Source of the DNA: Halorubrum rubrum
GTDB taxonomy: Archaea > Halobacteriota > Halobacteria > Halobacteriales > Haloferacaceae
Assembly (NCBI RefSeq): GCF_024494685.1
Contig: NZ_JANHDM010000004.1
Span: 62,001-126,000 of the forward strand
Reading direction: 5' to 3'
DNA length: 64,000 bases
The notes beneath the pieces are model-generated. The model did no database searches. It was given only the letters and a program-made list of their open reading frames with translations, and was not told the DNA's origin. Both the position numbers and the translations under genes were made by a program. How positions within the stretch are numbered: position 1 is the stretch's first letter; the number at the start of each line of letters is the position of its first letter. This document shows positions 55,918 through 64,000 of this stretch, piece by piece.

Positions 55918-57123
55918 TCACCACGCCCCGCGGAGCACGCCCTCGATCCGCTCCGGAGAGGCGTCGATCCCCGCCGGCGCCCGCTCCATCGGCGGGTCCT
56001 CGGCGACGAACGCCGCGATCGCGGGGAGGTCGTCCTCCCGAACGGCGTCGAGGTCGCGCAGGCGGTCCGGCACGGGGAGGGCGTCGCGGACGGCCGCGAC
56101 CGCGTCGACGACCGCCTCGGCGACCGCGTCGTCGTCGCGTCCCTCGGCGTCGATGCCGAACCCGGCCGCGAGCGCCCGGCGGCCCGCGTCGGCCTCCTCG
56201 AAGAGGTACGCGAGGACGTGCGGGGCGACGACCGCGTGGATCGCCCCCTGTTGGACGTCGTACCGGCGGGCGAAGCCGTGACCGAACGCGTGGATGACGT
56301 TGATCTTCCGGTCGATCTGGACGAGCAGCGCGCCCGCGACGGCCCGGTCCATCGCGGCGGCCTCGTCGCCAGCGCGGTCGCCCGCGACGACCGGAAGCGC
56401 CCCGGAGAGGAGTCGGACCCCGTGGATCGCGGTCGCGTCGCTGACGGGCGAGGCGTCGCGGGCGTACGTCGTCTCGACCCCTTTGTCGAAGCCGTTCATC
56501 GCGGAGCCGGCGAGGACGGGCCGCGGCGTCGTCTCGAACAGGTCCGGATCGAGCAGATCGACGACCGGCATGGCGGAGCCCCGCACCGATATGGGGTGGT
56601 CCGTCGGCGATTCGGCGGCCGAGTACACCTCGAGTGACCCTCCGGCCGAGAGGTCCGCGCCCGCGAACGTGGTCGGCACGACGACCACGGGGAGCGCGGG
56701 CTCCGCGGTCGCCGGCGCGATCGACCCCGAGCGCGCCTCGGCCTCGAGGGCCGCGAGGTCGCGACCGTCCGCGGCGAGGACGGAGGCCTGTCTGGCGACG
56801 TCGAGGCTGCTTCCTCCGCCGACGGCGACGAGGGCGTCGGCGCCCGTCGCCGACGCCGCCTCGAGCAGGTCGAAGACGGTTTCCGCCCGCTTTTCGGGCG
56901 TCGTCCCGTCGAAGGTCCCGGCGTGTCGGTCGCCGAGCCCCTCCCGGATCGGGTCCATGAGGTCGTCGTTCGCCCCGACGTTGGAGCCGCAGACGACGAG
57001 CGCGTCGTCGACTCCTCGATCGGCGAGCGACGACCCGAGGTCGGCGACCCGCCCGCGCCCGTACAGCACCTCACAGCCCTCGTACTCCGCCTCGAACCGG
57101 TCCGCGATCGGCAACATGCCCAT
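55918..57123 (-). CDS. Iron-containing alcohol dehydrogenase family protein
   Basis: 401 residues from ATG 57121-57123; a GTG at 57132 would add three. NAD-binding GGGSSLDVARQASVLA, PTTFAGADLSAGGS, and the metal-binding region HAFGHGFARRYDVQQGAIHA with HVLAYLF carry the conserved His residues of the Fe-ADH / dehydroquinate synthase-like fold. A TATA-like box (minus strand CTATATAC, near 57170-57177) lies about 50 nt upstream. The reaction is an alcohol/aldehyde or polyol oxidation, not known exactly. Divergent from the FtsZ-like operon. Confidence 0.88.
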   Translation of the reverse strand: MGMLPIADRFEAEYEGCEVLYGRGRVADLGSSLADRGVDDALVVCGSNVGANDDLMDPIREGLGDRHAGTFDGTTPEKRAETVFDLLEAASATGADALVAVGGGSSLDVARQASVLAADGRDLAALEAEARSGSIAPATAEPALPVVVVPTTFAGADLSAGGSLEVYSAAESPTDHPISVRGSAMPVVDLLDPDLFETTPRPVLAGSAMNGFDKGVETTYARDASPVSDATAIHGVRLLSGALPVVAGDRAGDEAAAMDRAVAGALLVQIDRKINVIHAFGHGFARRYDVQQGAIHAVVAPHVLAYLFEEADAGRRALAAGFGIDAEGRDDDAVAEAVVDAVAAVRDALPVPDRLRDLDAVREDDLPAIAAFVAEDPPMERAPAGIDASPERIEGVLRGAW

Positions 57124-57246
57124 CCGTACCACGACGAGCGGTTTGTACCTGTGGGGAGCGGACGGATCCGGTATATAGGTCGAAACTGCCGATCCGTCCG
57201 CGTTCGTTTACGGGATCTGTCAAAAAAACATCCAGCCATCGAATAA

Positions 57247-57252
57247 TTTATA
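57247..57252 (+). promoter_or_regulatory. TATA-like box of the FtsZ-like operon
   Basis: TTTATA in AATAATTTATAGATAG, 30 nt before ATG 57282. The surrounding 40 bp are AT-rich against a GC-rich background. A TTG (57270) precedes in frame, but the ATG is preferred. Confidence 0.5.
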
Positions 57253-57281
57253 GATAGTTGTAAGGATCATTGAGTGTCAGC

Positions 57282-60200
57282 ATGAATCTCCCAAGCAGAA
57301 TATTTGCGATCGGGGGTGCTGGGAAGGCCATTACGTACGAGCTACTGAAAGCCGATTGGGTCCAGGAGGCGGTCCTGCGACCTCGCCCGAACCCCGAGAC
57401 GTTGACCGTGACCGTGATCGACACGGCGGAGGAGGAGGAGAACCGTGACCTCGAGCGGATCAAGGAGATCGAACAGCAGATCCAGGAGACGAAAGACCGG
57501 CTCCGCTCCGAACACACCGGTCGACCGGGAGAGATATCGATCGAGTACATCCCGCTCACCCGGAACATCCAGCTCCACGACCAGAACGACCTCATCGGCG
57601 AGGAGGCGGTGCCGCGGATCGCCTCGGGGGTCGGCATGGAGGAGGAGAACTGGTGGCTCAAACCGGAGTTCATCAACGAGAACCTCGACTTCGCCACCGG
57701 CGTCGTCCGGAAGCGCGGCCTGGGGAAGGGGCTCTACTACAAGGCGTACGCCGAGGACGACGACGTGCGGACGGCCATCGACCTTCCGGGCCGCGGGAAG
57801 GTCGCGGTCATCGCGGGGCTCGGCGGCGGCTCCGGCTCGGGGATCTTCATCGACCTCGTCAAACACCTCAAACGCACCCAGCGGACGGCCGAGATCACGC
57901 TGTTCGGCGTGTTGCCGAACGACGACGAGGGCGACGCGGAGAACGCGAACGCCCACGCCGCGCTCTCTGAACTGGAGTACCTCAGCCTCCAGGACGAGGA
58001 CCTGTTCAAAGACCGAATCTTGATCCCGATCGACCCCACCGGGTTCGGCGGGAAGAAGGCGAACATCCTCCAGAGCTCGGACGCGCTCTTAGAGTTCGAC
58101 CGGGCGGCGATCTACCTGATCGCGACCTACTACAACATGATGGACATGGAGGACCCGTTCGCGGACACGCCCTCCTACGCTCCCTTCATCATCGGGATAC
58201 CGCAGGTCCTCCGGTACAACGTCGACGCGATACAGGACGCGAAGACCGTCACGAAGGACATCCTGAACGCCAAACAGGACGCCCTCGAGGCGGAGGCGGA
58301 CATCTACGCCGGCGTCGACCGGTTCCTCTCGCGCGAGTGGAGCCCCGACGGCATGAACGGCGAGCTCCACGACTCCGACCGGACGGACCTCGAGACGCGG
58401 CTCAACAACGTGAAGTCGCTGCTCGACCTCGATCTGTTCACGGAGCTCGACTACGAGTCGGTCTCGATCTACCGCGAGATCGTCTCGGAGGCGGAGATGG
58501 AGGCGGACGACATCGTCGAGCTCATCGAGGTGATCGGCGGCTCGATCCGCGCCGGTACCGCCGAGGTGAGCAGCGACGGCGAGCAGTTCGTCGACAGCAT
58601 CGACAAGCAGCTCGGCGACGTGATCCGCGACGAACTGAACCGGCTCGCCCACCGGAAGGACCTCCTCGTGCGGCTCCGCGCGGTCGACGACAACCGCGTC
58701 GAGAGCACGATCAGCTACCTTCTCGCGCTGGAGGACGAGGCGATAAACGCCGGCGTCCGGCTCAACCAGCTCGAGGCAAAACTCGATGAGGCCACGGAGC
58801 GGAGAGACCGGCTCCAGTCCGACTTGGAGGACGCGGACGAGGAGCTCGAGGAGCGGCGGCGGTCCCAACAGGACGAGGTCGACCGCCGCGTCGACGAGTG
58901 GGAGCGGTCGGTCCAGCCGATCTACGAGGAGTACGAGGACTGCCGCTCGATCGACGCCGAGCGGATGGGCGACGACCTCGAGATGGCCCTCGAGACGTAC
59001 GGCCGCGAGGTGAAGAACGCCGAGACGGAAGACCAGCTCGAGGCGGTGAGCGACGGACAGGTCCGGAGTACGCTCAACGAGCTCTCCGAGGAGTTCGACC
59101 GCGTCGGGATCAACGTCTCCGACACCGAACGACGGATAAACGCCTCCCTGGCCGACCTGGCGGACGCCAAACAGGCGTTCCTCCAGATGAACCAGGAGGA
59201 GGGGACCCTCGAGTCCATCCTCCCGTGGGACACCTCCGGCGAGGAGGAGCGCAAGCAGGCGCAGAAGAACTACCGGATGAAGCGCAACCAGCTCGACGAC
59301 AACGAGGTGTTCACGATCTCCCGCGCCGGCGACTCGCTGTCGATCGAGCTGGAGTTCTCCGTCGGCAGCCTCCAGCGGACGATAGAGGAGGAGCTCGAGA
59401 ATCGCCGCCGCGACATCCTCACGGAGACGCGCGCCGAACTCGAGACGGACAGTCCGCGGGCGCTCGACGAGATCGAGCGGCAGCTCGACGCGGGCGCGAG
59501 CTTCTCCGAGCTCGCGCGCGAGTTCGAGGAGCTGATCAAAGACGAGGTCATCGAGACCGACGACATCGAGCGCCGGCGCGACGAGCTACAGTCGGAGCTC
59601 GAGGACGCGGAGCACAAAGCCGAGCTGTACGAGGGGACCGTCAGCCTCTTCGAGGAGCTCAACGGCCCGCGAGACGTGTTCATGAACTCGCAGAACGAGT
59701 ACCGGAACCTGCGGGAGAACTACAACGAGAGCCGGGAGACCACCGTCTCGACGGAGGACGAGCAGTACCACTACGTCAAGACGGTCAAGCCGCACGACAT
59801 CCTCCAGCTCAGGGACGACTCGGACATCGCGGAGAGCAAGCTGTTCGACGACGAGACTGAGCGCCAGCGGCTCCGCGGCTCCCTCGAGGAGCTCGCGAAG
59901 AACGCGCACAACCCCAAGTACACCGGGATCCGGAAACGCCGGATCAGCGGCGACCGCTCCCGCTACAACGACATGAACATCGTCGTCGGGGTGATGAGTC
60001 GAGCGATAAACCAGATCGGCGACGTGGCGGACCTCAAGCCGGTCTTCCAGGGCGCGTACAACCTGGGTGCCGGCAGCGAGAACTTCGCGTCGTTCCCGGT
60101 CGAGGCCGGCGGAAGCTGGGACATCGGGCTCGGGATCTTCATCGACGGGATCTTCCTGGACAACCTCCGCGCGGAGGTCGAAGCCGACGGCTACCAGACC

Positions 60201-60452
60201 GGCTACCGGGCCAAGGAGGCATCCGACGACACCGACATCCTGGTCCATCACACCTACGGACTCGACGAGGGACAGTACGTCCGCCGCAACGACGTGTTGA
60301 ACCTCGAGAACCCCAACGACACCCAGTTCTTCCTCCGCGACGAGGGGGATATCAAGGACGACCTCCTGAACGAGCACATCGAGCGCGTTCCGTTCTCCGA
60401 CGGGACGAAACAGGCCGACGTGCCCTCCGAGACGACGGACGGGGGGGAGTGA
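57282..60452 (+). CDS. FtsZ/tubulin-like GTPase with long coiled coils (FtsZl-1 / Tubulin_2 family)
   Basis: 1056 residues from ATG 57282. The nucleotide-binding domain is at about 1-330: FAIGGAGKAITYELLK at the start, and the tubulin signature VIAGLGGGSGSGIFIDLVK with GGGSGSG at residues 181-187. ATYYNMMDMEDPF and FIIGIPQVLRYN follow. A long helical region has coiled coils at about 485-545 (LNQLEAKLDEATERRDRL) and 740-795 (RRRDELQSELEDAEHKAEL). The C-terminal ~200 residues form a separate domain (DRSRYNDMNIVVGVMSRA). It matches the FtsZl-1 family predicted by Makarova and Koonin to drive membrane remodelling. First gene of a three-gene operon; 7 bp to the next. Confidence 0.88.
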   Translation: MNLPSRIFAIGGAGKAITYELLKADWVQEAVLRPRPNPETLTVTVIDTAEEEENRDLERIKEIEQQIQETKDRLRSEHTGRPGEISIEYIPLTRNIQLHDQNDLIGEEAVPRIASGVGMEEENWWLKPEFINENLDFATGVVRKRGLGKGLYYKAYAEDDDVRTAIDLPGRGKVAVIAGLGGGSGSGIFIDLVKHLKRTQRTAEITLFGVLPNDDEGDAENANAHAALSELEYLSLQDEDLFKDRILIPIDPTGFGGKKANILQSSDALLEFDRAAIYLIATYYNMMDMEDPFADTPSYAPFIIGIPQVLRYNVDAIQDAKTVTKDILNAKQDALEAEADIYAGVDRFLSREWSPDGMNGELHDSDRTDLETRLNNVKSLLDLDLFTELDYESVSIYREIVSEAEMEADDIVELIEVIGGSIRAGTAEVSSDGEQFVDSIDKQLGDVIRDELNRLAHRKDLLVRLRAVDDNRVESTISYLLALEDEAINAGVRLNQLEAKLDEATERRDRLQSDLEDADEELEERRRSQQDEVDRRVDEWERSVQPIYEEYEDCRSIDAERMGDDLEMALETYGREVKNAETEDQLEAVSDGQVRSTLNELSEEFDRVGINVSDTERRINASLADLADAKQAFLQMNQEEGTLESILPWDTSGEEERKQAQKNYRMKRNQLDDNEVFTISRAGDSLSIELEFSVGSLQRTIEEELENRRRDILTETRAELETDSPRALDEIERQLDAGASFSELAREFEELIKDEVIETDDIERRRDELQSELEDAEHKAELYEGTVSLFEELNGPRDVFMNSQNEYRNLRENYNESRETTVSTEDEQYHYVKTVKPHDILQLRDDSDIAESKLFDDETERQRLRGSLEELAKNAHNPKYTGIRKRRISGDRSRYNDMNIVVGVMSRAINQIGDVADLKPVFQGAYNLGAGSENFASFPVEAGGSWDIGLGIFIDGIFLDNLRAEVEADGYQTGYRAKEASDDTDILVHHTYGLDEGQYVRRNDVLNLENPNDTQFFLRDEGDIKDDLLNEHIERVPFSDGTKQADVPSETTDGGE

Positions 60453-60459
60453 TCGGTAG

Positions 60460-61902
60460 ATGACGGCGATCGGTGAGTTCCTCGAGGAGAACGGCGAGAA
60501 GGTCTTTCTCGTCGTGTACTTCGCGGTGATGGTGATCGTCGCCGGCCCGCTTTTCGTCTCGCTCGGGGAGGCGTGGCAGGCGTCGGACATCGTCAGGCCT
60601 GCCATCCTCGCGTTGAACCCGCTTTTGGGCGTCACCCTCGAACAGTTCTCCGCGCTGATGTTCGGGCTCTACCTCGGGCTGTTGATCCTCGTGACCCTCG
60701 ACCCGAAAAAGCGGGTCCAGGGGATACTGTTGTGTCTCGGGACCGTCTCCGCGCTCGTCGCGCTGTTGTCGATCGGGCTGTTCATCCCGAACATCGACTT
60801 CGGGGCCAACATCGTGTGGGTCCTCGGCGGCTTCGTCGGCGGCGGACTCGTCGGCGGCGGCCCCAAGCTGCTCGAGGTTCGGACGGCGAGCGCGCTCGAG
60901 TTCCGGCGCTCCGCGACGCTCCTGTTTTATCTGATCAGCATGATCGTCGTCGGCGGGCTGATCGAATACCACGTCAACTTCCCGCAGATCCTCCAGGTCT
61001 CCGCCGAGACCGTACGGATCGTGCCGCCGAGCCCGAACGTGAGCGTCGAGTGGGCCGGCGTCGGCGTGAACACGCTGATGGCGGCGGTGTTCGTGGTCAC
61101 GCTGCGCCGGTTCGTGACCTACGACGCCGAGGAGAACTTCTTCGTGTTGGGGCCGCAGGGGTCGGGGAAGTCGCTGTTCCTCGTCGGGAAGTACTTGGCC
61201 GCGCTCGACGACGCGGTCGGCCGCGAGGCCGACACGCCGCTGAACCCGAGCAGCGACCTCATGGAGCTGGTCGGGTCGCTCGACGCGGCGTCGAAGGACA
61301 CCGGCTGGAAGCTCGACGCGACCGGACAGACCGACGTCGAGGACCTGAACTTCAACTTCGTCGACGGCCGGGTGTTCCCGAAGAACATCGAGCTGTCGAG
61401 TCTCGACTACGCGGGCGAGTATCTCGAACGCCTGCCGAACGCGCTGATGAGTCCGGACGACGAGATCGACAACTCGACGCTCCGGCTGCTCGCCCAGCGG
61501 GTTCGAGACGCCAACACGCTGATCTTGATCATCGACGTCGAGCGGTACCACAACAACGAGCCGCTGGAGATTGAGCCGTACTTCGACATTCTGGACGTCG
61601 CCTCGAACAAGGACGTGCTGTTGGTCGCGACGAAGTGCGACATCCTCGCCGAGGAGTTCCGCGACAAGCAGGCGCTCGAGGCCCACCAGTACTTCGACGA
61701 GTTCCAGGACTTCGTCAGCGAGACGCTTATCGAGAACAACCAGACGGTTCGGACGCTCGTACAGGACACCTCCGGGTCGGACATTTACCCGGTGTACTAC
61801 CAGACGACGACCGACGAGAACGGCGAACGCGTTCCGATGCGCGACCGCAACGGGAACGTGATGACCGTCGGATTCGACGAACTCCTCGAGAAGATGGGGT
61901 GA
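60460..61902 (+). CDS. Polytopic membrane protein with P-loop GTPase-like domain
   Basis: 480 residues. About six membrane helices (residues 15-220) precede a cytoplasmic GTPase-like domain. Walker A/G1 is FFVLGPQGSGKSLFLVGKY with GPQGSGKS at 231-238; G3 is DYAG at 316-319; G4 is TKCD at 391-394. This layout fits the distinct GTPase known from FtsZl-1 gene neighbourhoods. It starts 7 bp after the FtsZ-like stop and ends 6 bp before the third gene, so the three are one operon. It probably recruits or signals to the FtsZ-like polymer at the membrane. Confidence 0.82.
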   Translation: MTAIGEFLEENGEKVFLVVYFAVMVIVAGPLFVSLGEAWQASDIVRPAILALNPLLGVTLEQFSALMFGLYLGLLILVTLDPKKRVQGILLCLGTVSALVALLSIGLFIPNIDFGANIVWVLGGFVGGGLVGGGPKLLEVRTASALEFRRSATLLFYLISMIVVGGLIEYHVNFPQILQVSAETVRIVPPSPNVSVEWAGVGVNTLMAAVFVVTLRRFVTYDAEENFFVLGPQGSGKSLFLVGKYLAALDDAVGREADTPLNPSSDLMELVGSLDAASKDTGWKLDATGQTDVEDLNFNFVDGRVFPKNIELSSLDYAGEYLERLPNALMSPDDEIDNSTLRLLAQRVRDANTLILIIDVERYHNNEPLEIEPYFDILDVASNKDVLLVATKCDILAEEFRDKQALEAHQYFDEFQDFVSETLIENNQTVRTLVQDTSGSDIYPVYYQTTTDENGERVPMRDRNGNVMTVGFDELLEKMG

Positions 61903-61908
61903 CCACGG

Positions 61909-63624
61909 ATGCCATCACTACGCGTATACGACACGAGAGGAAACGAACACTCGCCGACGGGCGGCGGCGGCCGGTCGAACGAACGGGTGAAGGACCTGGG
62001 TCCCGCCGGCGTGAGACTCGCGATCGAGGCGGGGCGTGAGCGCAAGTTCACGATGTTCTTCCGGGCGCGGGAGACCCGGAACGCCCGAACCGAGCAGTTC
62101 TACGCCGTGTACACCACGCGGGACGGGTCGATGCGGGAGTTCATCGACGCGCTGCGGGACCGGATCGAGGCCGAGTGGGGATACACGATAGACGACTCCG
62201 CCGACGACATGAGCGTCTTCCGGGCGCTCGACGCCGGCAACACCTCGCTGCCGGGCTCCGATCAGGACAGAGCGATACTCGAGGAGCTGGTCGGCTCGCG
62301 GCAGGGCGGGACCGTCGGCGTGCGCGACGCGGAGAGCGCGCTCGGGCTCGTCAACGAGCTCATGGGCACGTACAACCGCGCCGCCGTCGCGGACTCGCCG
62401 GAGTCGAACGCGCTGTCGGATTTCGATCTGGTGGTCGCCCCCGACGGGTCGAGCGGCATCGCCCCGATCGGCGACACCGAGGAACGGTGGGAGTCGACGA
62501 AGGAGTCGATCCGCAGCCGGCTCATCGACGAGGAGATCGCCTCGATCAACGAGTCCGTCCAGACGCTCTCGCGGGAGCACGGCCTCTCGAGTTCGGAGAT
62601 CCGGCGGCGGGTGAGCCAGCGCGTCCCGGCGTTGAGCGCGCCGAGTTCCGGCGGCTCCACGGCCGACCGGCTCTCGAGTGCGGGCTCCTCGAGCCGGTTC
62701 GACATGGCCGAGATCGGCAAGTACGTCGCCATCGGCGCGATCGTGTTGATCGTGTTGATCGGCGGGTTCTTCGGCGCGAGCGCCCTCGGCCTGATCGGCG
62801 GCGGGGGCGGCGACGACCCCGGCGCAGCCAACGGGACGGACGCCGCCCTCGCCACGATCAGCGGGAGCGTGGTCGACGCGGACGGAGAGACGATCGATTC
62901 GTCGGTCGAGGTGACCGCGGAACGGATCGTCGACGCGGACGGAAACGAGACGGATGGCCCGGCGAACACGACGACGGCGGAGGGCGGAACGTTCACCCTC
63001 GAGAACGTCTCGACCGGAACGTACGAGATCTCCGCCGAATCGACCGAGGTCTTCGAGTACGGAACCGCGAAGGTCGACGTCACCGAGAACGGGACCAACG
63101 AGGTCGAACTCGCCCCGACCAGCGCGACCGTGAGCGGTACGGTCGTCGACACGAACGGCGACGAACTCAACGCGACGATCGAACTCCTCGACGGGAACGG
63201 CGAGACCGTCGACTCCGTCGAGGGGAGCAGTTACGATTTCAGCGTCGACGACCTCGAGGGGAGCTACACCGTGCGCGCCCAGGCCGACGGCCACGAGTCG
63301 GCCGAGCACACCGTGGAGTCGTTCGGTGAGCAGGCTGACATCGAACTCGAATCGACGGGAGTAAGTCTCACAGGAGATATCAGCGACACGAACGGGGAAG
63401 CGATCGAGAACGCGACCGTCGAGGTGACGATCGCTCCGGGTGACGTCCGAACGGCGACATCCAGCTTGATCGGAGAATACGAGGTCACTGGGATCCCCTC
63501 GAACGGGGAATATCGGGTTGAAGTAAGCGCTGATGGTTACGAGACGAAATCGCGAACCGTCGACTTCAGCGGGGAGAACCAGGTCTTCGAGGAGGACTTC
63601 GATCTCAACTCGTCCCAGTCGTAG
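61909..63624 (+). CDS. Single-span protein: cytoplasmic domain plus three extracellular CarboxypepD-reg repeats
   Basis: 571 residues. N-terminal cytoplasmic part (about 1-265) starts MPSLRVYDTRGNEHSPTGGG and contains FTMFFRARETRNARTEQF and ISSINESVQT-like helices. One membrane helix follows at about 272-297 (VAIGAIVLIVLIGGFFGASA). Outside lie three carboxypeptidase-regulatory-like beta domains (ATISGSVVDADGETIDSSVE; ATVSGTVVDTNGDELNATIE; VSLTGDISDTNGEAIENATV) with N-glycosylation sequons. There is no lipobox or PGF-CTERM tail. It could couple the FtsZ-like/GTPase pair to the cell surface. No vWA domain is visible. Confidence 0.8.
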   Translation: MPSLRVYDTRGNEHSPTGGGGRSNERVKDLGPAGVRLAIEAGRERKFTMFFRARETRNARTEQFYAVYTTRDGSMREFIDALRDRIEAEWGYTIDDSADDMSVFRALDAGNTSLPGSDQDRAILEELVGSRQGGTVGVRDAESALGLVNELMGTYNRAAVADSPESNALSDFDLVVAPDGSSGIAPIGDTEERWESTKESIRSRLIDEEIASINESVQTLSREHGLSSSEIRRRVSQRVPALSAPSSGGSTADRLSSAGSSSRFDMAEIGKYVAIGAIVLIVLIGGFFGASALGLIGGGGGDDPGAANGTDAALATISGSVVDADGETIDSSVEVTAERIVDADGNETDGPANTTTAEGGTFTLENVSTGTYEISAESTEVFEYGTAKVDVTENGTNEVELAPTSATVSGTVVDTNGDELNATIELLDGNGETVDSVEGSSYDFSVDDLEGSYTVRAQADGHESAEHTVESFGEQADIELESTGVSLTGDISDTNGEAIENATVEVTIAPGDVRTATSSLIGEYEVTGIPSNGEYRVEVSADGYETKSRTVDFSGENQVFEEDFDLNSSQS

Positions 63625-63759: not shown

Positions 63760-64000
63760 CTATTCGTCTCGCTCCAGCGACTCGAAGAGCCGTTCGATCC
63801 GCTCGCGTTCGCCCTCGGCCTCGGCGGGGTACGCGCCGGCGACGAGGACCACGTCCTCGCCGCGCTCGACGATGGTGAGGTGGATGTACCCTCGTTCCTC
63901 GGTGCCGTCGGGGAGGACGACGGTCGCCTCGTAGACGCTCACCTCGGTGGTCTCGCCGAACACCTCCTGTTCGATCGTCTCGTCGAGCTCCGGGTCGCGG
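63760..64000 (-). CDS. DUF6517 family protein (C-terminal part; runs off the window)
   Basis: The minus-strand frame is open from the window edge (reading RDPELDETIEQEVFGETTEV) to the stop at 63760, about 80 codons. Continuing residues YEATVVLPDGTEERGYIHL and ERGEDVVLVAGAYPAEAEGE fit the haloarchaeal DUF6517 lipoprotein family. Start and signal peptide lie outside the window. It converges with the FtsZ-like operon across a 135-bp gap. Confidence 0.75.
   Translation of the reverse strand, partial: RDPELDETIEQEVFGETTEVSVYEATVVLPDGTEERGYIHLTIVERGEDVVLVAGAYPAEAEGERERIERLFESLERDE

Follow-up and report, generated by a model that had tools for sequence, protein, structure and literature searches.

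A conserved, co-inherited trio of a tubulin-like protein, a membrane GTPase and a surface protein in a patchy cassette of Halorubrum rubrum

Introduction

What might a tubulin-like protein do in an archaeon where its gene is followed, within a few nucleotides, by genes for a membrane GTPase and a single-span surface protein? The question is raised by three consecutive forward-strand genes of Halorubrum rubrum, located in a stretch of 64,000 nucleotides (contig NZ_JANHDM010000004.1, positions 62,001 to 126,000) that is referred to here as the window and supplies all positions given below. Gene 1 (57282..60452), read from an ATG start and assigned by Pfam, AlphaFold and orthologues, encodes FtsZ-like 1 (FtsZl1, Tubulin_2; 1056 residues). 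Gene 2 (60460..61902) encodes a membrane GTPase of 480 residues, distantly related to double-GTPases on the basis of motifs, hydropathy and profiles, and gene 3 (61909..63624) encodes a surface protein of 571 residues, identified by hydropathy and Pfam. Gene 2 starts 7 base pairs (bp) after gene 1 and gene 3 starts 6 bp after gene 2. The coordinates, length of FtsZl1, spacings and motifs given by an earlier sequence-only reading of the window all agree with the sequence.

The FtsZl1 family was defined by Makarova and Koonin in 2010 from Huta_2051 of Halorhabdus utahensis (PMC2875224). As this founder is itself haloarchaeal, and the same paper already notes membrane-associated archaeal GTPases and linked kinases, the trio is not the separate archaeal version of the 2010 system that the sequence-only reading had supposed. 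The literature found holds no experimental test of FtsZl1 since the 2010 prediction, filament experiments included. The locus is a real, conserved and named but uncharacterised system, with an anatomy that goes beyond the published descriptions found. We propose that it encodes a membrane-bound, GTP-gated signalling-to-polymer module, in which a surface-gated GTPase switch would control a membrane-linked tubulin polymer, and we judge this proposal to be evenly balanced between right and wrong.

Results

Genes 1–3 form a conserved, co-inherited cluster. Among 195 genomes of the order, strong FtsZl1 matches were found in 12, the GTPase in 13 and both in 11 (Fisher p = 3e-15, with genomes counted and relatedness ignored), and with 11/12 strong FtsZl1 genomes carrying it, the idea of a dedicated GTPase holds. 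The trio has the same gene order in relatives with identities between 96% and ~36% and also, more diverged, outside the haloarchaea in the Methanosarcinales/Methanomicrobia; a lack of synteny in relatives was looked for and did not occur. The carriers include Halorubrum halodurans, the FtsZl1 of which is 95% identical over its full length, H. vacuolatum, Haloterrigena salina, Halovenus carboxidivorans, Halorientalis regularis, Haloferax profundi, Halorutilus salinus, Methanogenium marinum and Methanosarcina spelaei. A low-GC genome from outside the order (G214; L109 4117-10497) has a trio of the haloarchaeal type with 38% identity to haloarchaeal copies, compared to ~20% for the other methanogen copies, and, judged from these identities, a transfer between lineages is possible.

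Profiles and modelling assign the gene 1 product to the tubulin/FtsZ GTPase fold. FtsZl1 passes the Pfam threshold for Tubulin_2 (38.8 bits; cut-off, 27) and stays under that for Tubulin (25.7 bits; cut-off, 33), and a search of the PDB with a profile of 15 FtsZl1 relatives matched FtsZ at 6e-7. The AlphaFold model (predicted local distance difference test (pLDDT), 80.5; predicted template modelling score (pTM), 0.59) matches the structures of tubulins, OdinTubulin, FtsZ and TubZ (best E, 7.5e-5; probability, 1.00). The assignment made from the sequence alone therefore stands, and a better alignment to a non-tubulin family, which was sought, did not occur. The GTP-binding T4 loop GGGSGSG (57822..57842, forward strand; residues 181-187) matches the pattern GGG[TS]G[ST]G, and its glycines 181, 182, 183, 185 and 187 are unchanged in the alignment of the 15 relatives.

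Behind the GTP-binding part, the model has long helices (314-820) followed by a mixed alpha/beta C-terminal end. A short FtsZl1 paralogue of 562 residues, encoded on another contig of the same genome (C11; L008 7155-8843), covers FtsZl1 residues 2-321 and 824-1043 with nothing between them, and because of this the coiled-coil region (58245..59750, forward strand; residues ~322-823) is read as a removable segment, not as a terminal extension. The paralogue and its orthologue in G021 have the same altered GTP loop, GLGGATSG, which is thus unlikely to be a sequencing error. No GTPase gene of the gene 2 type adjoins the short paralogue.

The C-terminal domain, as delimited by the model and the alignment (59751..60449, forward strand; residues ~824-1056), is modelled with strands (E) and helices (H) in the order E899, H909-926, E935, E947, H971 and E998, an order that, as we take it, is also that of the FtsZ C-terminal domain. 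Residue E860, invariant in the alignment of relatives, presumably occupies the position expected of the catalytic acidic residue in the T7 loop. Based on the model, the C-terminal part of FtsZl1 may therefore resemble the FtsZ C-terminal domain in element order; sequence comparison with haloarchaeal FtsZ/CetZ recovered nothing of this domain. In the 2010 and 2023 papers (PMC2875224, PMC9871819), no recognisable FtsZ_C or Tubulin_C is reported for the family, and the C-terminal end is described in 2010 as mostly alpha-helical.

These features bear on whether FtsZl1 forms a polymer at all. It could instead be a nucleotide-dependent scaffold and not a filament, with the GTPase and gene 3 product as a receptor-switch pair to which FtsZl1 would bind through its coiled coil as an optional effector. 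Such an arrangement would suit the locus of G025 (L121 10076-13243), which has the GTPase and gene 3 with no detectable FtsZl1, and that of G179, where the GTPase stands by itself close to the end of a contig, as well as the coil-less paralogue with its altered GTP loop and a canonical FtsZ C-terminal domain that is undetectable by sequence. With the T4 loop and core residues invariant in 15 relatives, and with a tubulin-like model that has its C-terminal elements in FtsZ-like order, a scaffold of this kind is quite improbable.

The gene 2 product carries the G1 motif GPQGSGKS (residues 231-238; 61150-61173), DYAGE (316-320; 61405-61419) and TKCD (391-394; 61630-61641), all on the forward strand. 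The six membrane helices ascribed to it are recovered in part, as hydropathy gives ~6 segments in total at some thresholds and only four strong ones. No Pfam family, DO-GTPase1/2 included, scored over its cut-off. A motif of the form D-[YH]-x-G-[EQP], mostly DYxGE, is present in nearly all of 29 compared P-loop copies, and a Walker B glutamate is a named hallmark of the double-GTPases (Kaur et al. 2020, PMC7159879). When the family profile was compared using hhalign with three archaeal proteins that score over the Pfam DO-GTPase2 cut-off (L124-L126), similarity extended across 124 columns (probability 95.9%, E 6e-9), compared to 14-29 columns for P-loop decoys from outside the family. Aligned singly, L124 gave 89 columns, L126 99 columns (weak) and L125 28 columns, whereas unrelated P-loop proteins gave no more than 27 columns around the P-loop. 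Additionally, a methanogen relative of gene 2 reaches 23.9 bits against DO-GTPase2 (cut-off, 27; E 3.8e-5). Because the DxxGE motif is shared and the profile similarity extends beyond the P-loop, yet the Pfam cut-off was failed, we conclude from these comparisons that the gene 2 protein is distant kin of the double-GTPases and not a member of the family.

Loci of five relatives (G009, G138, G132, G044 and Halosimplex) contain two GTPases, compared to one only in the window, and in them the copy adjoining FtsZl1 is without a P-loop, so that, to judge by sequence, they encode GTPase/pseudo-GTPase pairs. Searches of the PDB using phmmer for the gene 2 GTPase and profiles for genes 2 and 3 returned no credible relative, and nothing useful for proteins 1-3 was found in NCBIfam, PADLOC or PHROGs.

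The gene 3 product is the transmembrane partner of FtsZl1 and the GTPase, and its predicted architecture, a single span with three extracellular repeats, is borne out. A cytosolic N-terminal domain (61909..62508; residues 1-200), delimited by profile matches and modelled mostly above pLDDT 90, is followed by one transmembrane segment (62740..62796; ~278-296 by hydropathy, helix 267-293 in the model) and an ectodomain of three CarboxypepD_reg beta-sandwich repeats (62806..63621; Pfam 94.6 bits, cut-off 32.3), all on the forward strand. By profile, the N-terminal domain is found again across the haloarchaeal loci, weakly or by position in three diverged ones, and in the third gene of the Methanosarcinales/Methanomicrobia loci (179 columns, 92%, E 6.5e-7). 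The ectodomain varies in type, with CarboxypepD_reg here and CARDB, YceI-like or nothing recognisable in other relatives. In comparisons of the closest orthologues within the genus, identity is 92-97% for the cytosolic part and 56-64%, with 32-85 gap positions, for the ectodomain, which by these alignments evolves far faster and, due to this, suggests a role in recognition. At 61996-62007 the window encodes LGPAG where close relatives have LFYDG; most bases differ together there, within gene 3 sequence that is otherwise near-identical to these relatives.

In our reading, the modelled N-terminal domain is longin-like in strand/helix order only, its elements agreeing with the longin order beta1-beta2-alpha1-beta3-beta4-beta5-alpha2-alpha3. 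The best PDB matches were DENND10 (E 0.05, probability 0.47) and FLCN/FNIP2 complexes, none of them significant. The longin and roadblock proteins that serve as GTPase platforms (folliculin-FNIP, SRX-SRbeta) presumably share this strand/helix order and are, as we understand them, likewise companions of a membrane GTPase. Unlike these platforms, to which it has no significant match in sequence or fold, the gene 3 domain forms one protein with a membrane helix and surface repeats. The possibility that gene 3 encodes a GAP1 was rejected, as its N-terminal domain does not match GAP1 by profile.

Beyond the trio, the locus can be delimited by comparison with three same-genus genomes without it (G466, G460 and G457). 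To the left, an iron-containing alcohol dehydrogenase (55918..57132, reverse strand; Pfam Fe-ADH), found in 19/19 same-genus genomes searched, lies outside the cassette. At the empty sites it is 133-154 bp from the right-border gene, which in carriers is found ~10 kb to the right. The block missing from the empty sites holds FtsZl1, the GTPase and gene 3 together with a DUF6517 lipoprotein (Pfam; 63760..64000 in the window and to ~64428 beyond it, reverse strand, 3' end at 63760) and a beta-propeller protein whose end is kinase-like (~64554-67244, past the window end), so the system is larger than the three genes to which it had been limited. DUF6517 as a system-specific partner was rejected; because the family occurs in 27/30 genomes of the taxonomic family, the lipoprotein is linked to the system by cassette position only. 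In some relatives, the block adds a gene for a kinase-like transmembrane protein with CarboxypepD_reg domains, and such proteins follow gene 3 at L041 3955-6138 and L129 16537-18882. As the kinase-like domains of the cassette have no recognisable HRD or lysine motifs, they are probably pseudokinases. The empty sites show that the cassette is gained or lost as a whole block and is patchy within one genus. Repeats at its borders amount to a 9-bp match only, not above chance.

This patchiness bears on the published prediction for the family (Makarova and Koonin 2010), in which FtsZl1 belongs to a membrane-remodelling or vesicle-forming cytoskeleton, here understood as constitutive. Almost all carriers link a tubulin-fold GTPase with two membrane proteins, in line with this role. 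Doubts about the role were already voiced in the review of the 2010 paper, and gain or loss as a block within one genus is unlike a basic ancient process; further, vesicle or coat proteins were not found nearby and the fast-evolving gene 3 ectodomain points to recognition. Constitutive remodelling is, on this evidence, somewhat unlikely.

Compared with the loci described in 2010, the window shares an FtsZl1 of the Huta_2051 type (~1050 residues, with an N-terminal FtsZ-like domain, a coiled coil and a C-terminal domain), a linked divergent GTPase, membrane-associated as in archaea, and kinase-like genes nearby. A vWA protein is linked in the majority of predicted FtsZl1 operons (PMC2875224), whereas no vWA or OmpA is present here; the vWA partner that had been expected was not found among the scanned neighbours of the trio, although the family does not require one. 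In the haloarchaeon G115 (L099 5231-11819), a Tubulin_2 gene that does have a vWA link is of another, shorter type and adjoins an HSP70-like gene. The main text of the 2010 paper describes neither the gene 3 N-terminal domain nor a link to double-GTPases, and neither a removable coil nor the borders of the cassette; gene 3 may be among its supplementary families A1-A2. The haloarchaeal CetZ and FtsZ1/FtsZ2 share with FtsZl1 the T4 loop region and the tubulin-type GTPase fold (~41-50% identity over 70-100 residues); unlike these near-universal proteins, FtsZl1 is patchy, has its own kind of coiled coil and is in an operon with the gene 2 GTPase.

A similar set of parts is found in the GAP1-N2 double-GTPase systems, and the remodelling role assumed by the sequence-only reading, itself a prediction, competes with the GTPase-centric conflict function predicted for these (Kaur et al. 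2020, PMC7159879). The locus would then be antiviral or involved in kin recognition, with surface sensing as the trigger for a tubulin effector that assembles in a nucleoside triphosphate-dependent manner and damages either the invader or the infected cell. The locus and these systems alike have a GTPase that combines a Walker B glutamate with membrane helices at its N terminus, a coiled-coil tubulin, a beta-sandwich repeat protein and kinase-like proteins, and the block-wise patchiness and fast gene 3 ectodomain would also fit. This reading was weighed mainly because of one relative, G044 (L049 8129-18518, L122 9935-15254), in which the FtsZl1 core is accompanied by a second GTPase, a gene 3 homologue, HSP70, GrpE and an Ig-like DnaJ-CarboxypepD_reg protein; HSP70, GrpE and DnaJ-type proteins are listed accessories of GAP1-N2 systems (PMC7159879). 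In G404, there is an archaeal GAP1-N2 system that includes two GTPases as well as HSP70-like genes.

The window differs from such systems in having no GAP1, a single GTPase, which DO-GTPase2 does not detect, and no recognised toxic effector gene, and GAP1-N2 did not score over its cut-off in any of the haloarchaeal carriers tested. PADLOC had no match for proteins 1-3. A defence-island context was rejected, as 67 neighbours of eight relatives are mostly housekeeping genes, along with TnpB-like ones; most PADLOC matches among them are to Cas12f models, fall on the same genes as Pfam Cas12f1-like_TNB and are read as TnpB. Taken together, a conflict function appears unlikely.

Upstream of the trio, a TATA-like TTTATAGAT (57247..57255, forward strand), read from the sequence, lies 27 bp ahead of the first ATG and is also kept in the relative G465. 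Due to this position and its retention, it is probably the promoter of a single leaderless operon transcript.

Discussion

Returning to the question raised by the locus, the reading preferred here is the surface-gated switch that controls a membrane-linked polymer. The surface domain of gene 3 would meet something outside the cell, and its cytosolic domain would bind the gene 2 GTPase and set its nucleotide state. The GTPase would in turn control how FtsZl1 filaments assemble on the inner membrane face, with the coiled coil serving to space or cross-link them. Both the DUF6517 lipoprotein and the propeller-pseudokinase may be accessory receptors or regulators, and the output may be membrane remodelling, an envelope-stress response or defence.

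This proposal is favoured by the synteny of the trio, the co-occurrence of GTPase and FtsZl1, the tubulin fold, the DxxGE motif with the profile kinship to double-GTPases, a conserved gene 3 N-terminal domain next to a divergent ectodomain, and a block that is present or absent as a unit. Weighing against it, the contacts among proteins 1-3 are inferred, the FtsZl1 filaments are putative and unproven, the longin likeness is without statistical support (E 0.05 or worse), and tubulin is not always required, as G025 and G179 keep the GTPase without FtsZl1.

The work supplies a testable unit, consisting of a conserved three-gene core, cassette borders and natural same-genus empty sites, along with a defined double-GTPase link and, in the short paralogue, evidence that the coiled coil can be removed, and it sets two competing predictions, membrane remodelling and conflict, side by side. 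A more specific and improbable possibility is that the FtsZl1 trios of archaea make up a GTPase-centred branch of their own. In it, a longin-like domain of a surface receptor, instead of GAP1, would control a double-GTPase-like membrane switch driving a tubulin polymer, and the coiled coil would be an insertion within a complete FtsZ fold. If true, non-Asgard archaea would have a signalling path that runs from a receptor through a longin domain and a GTPase to tubulin.

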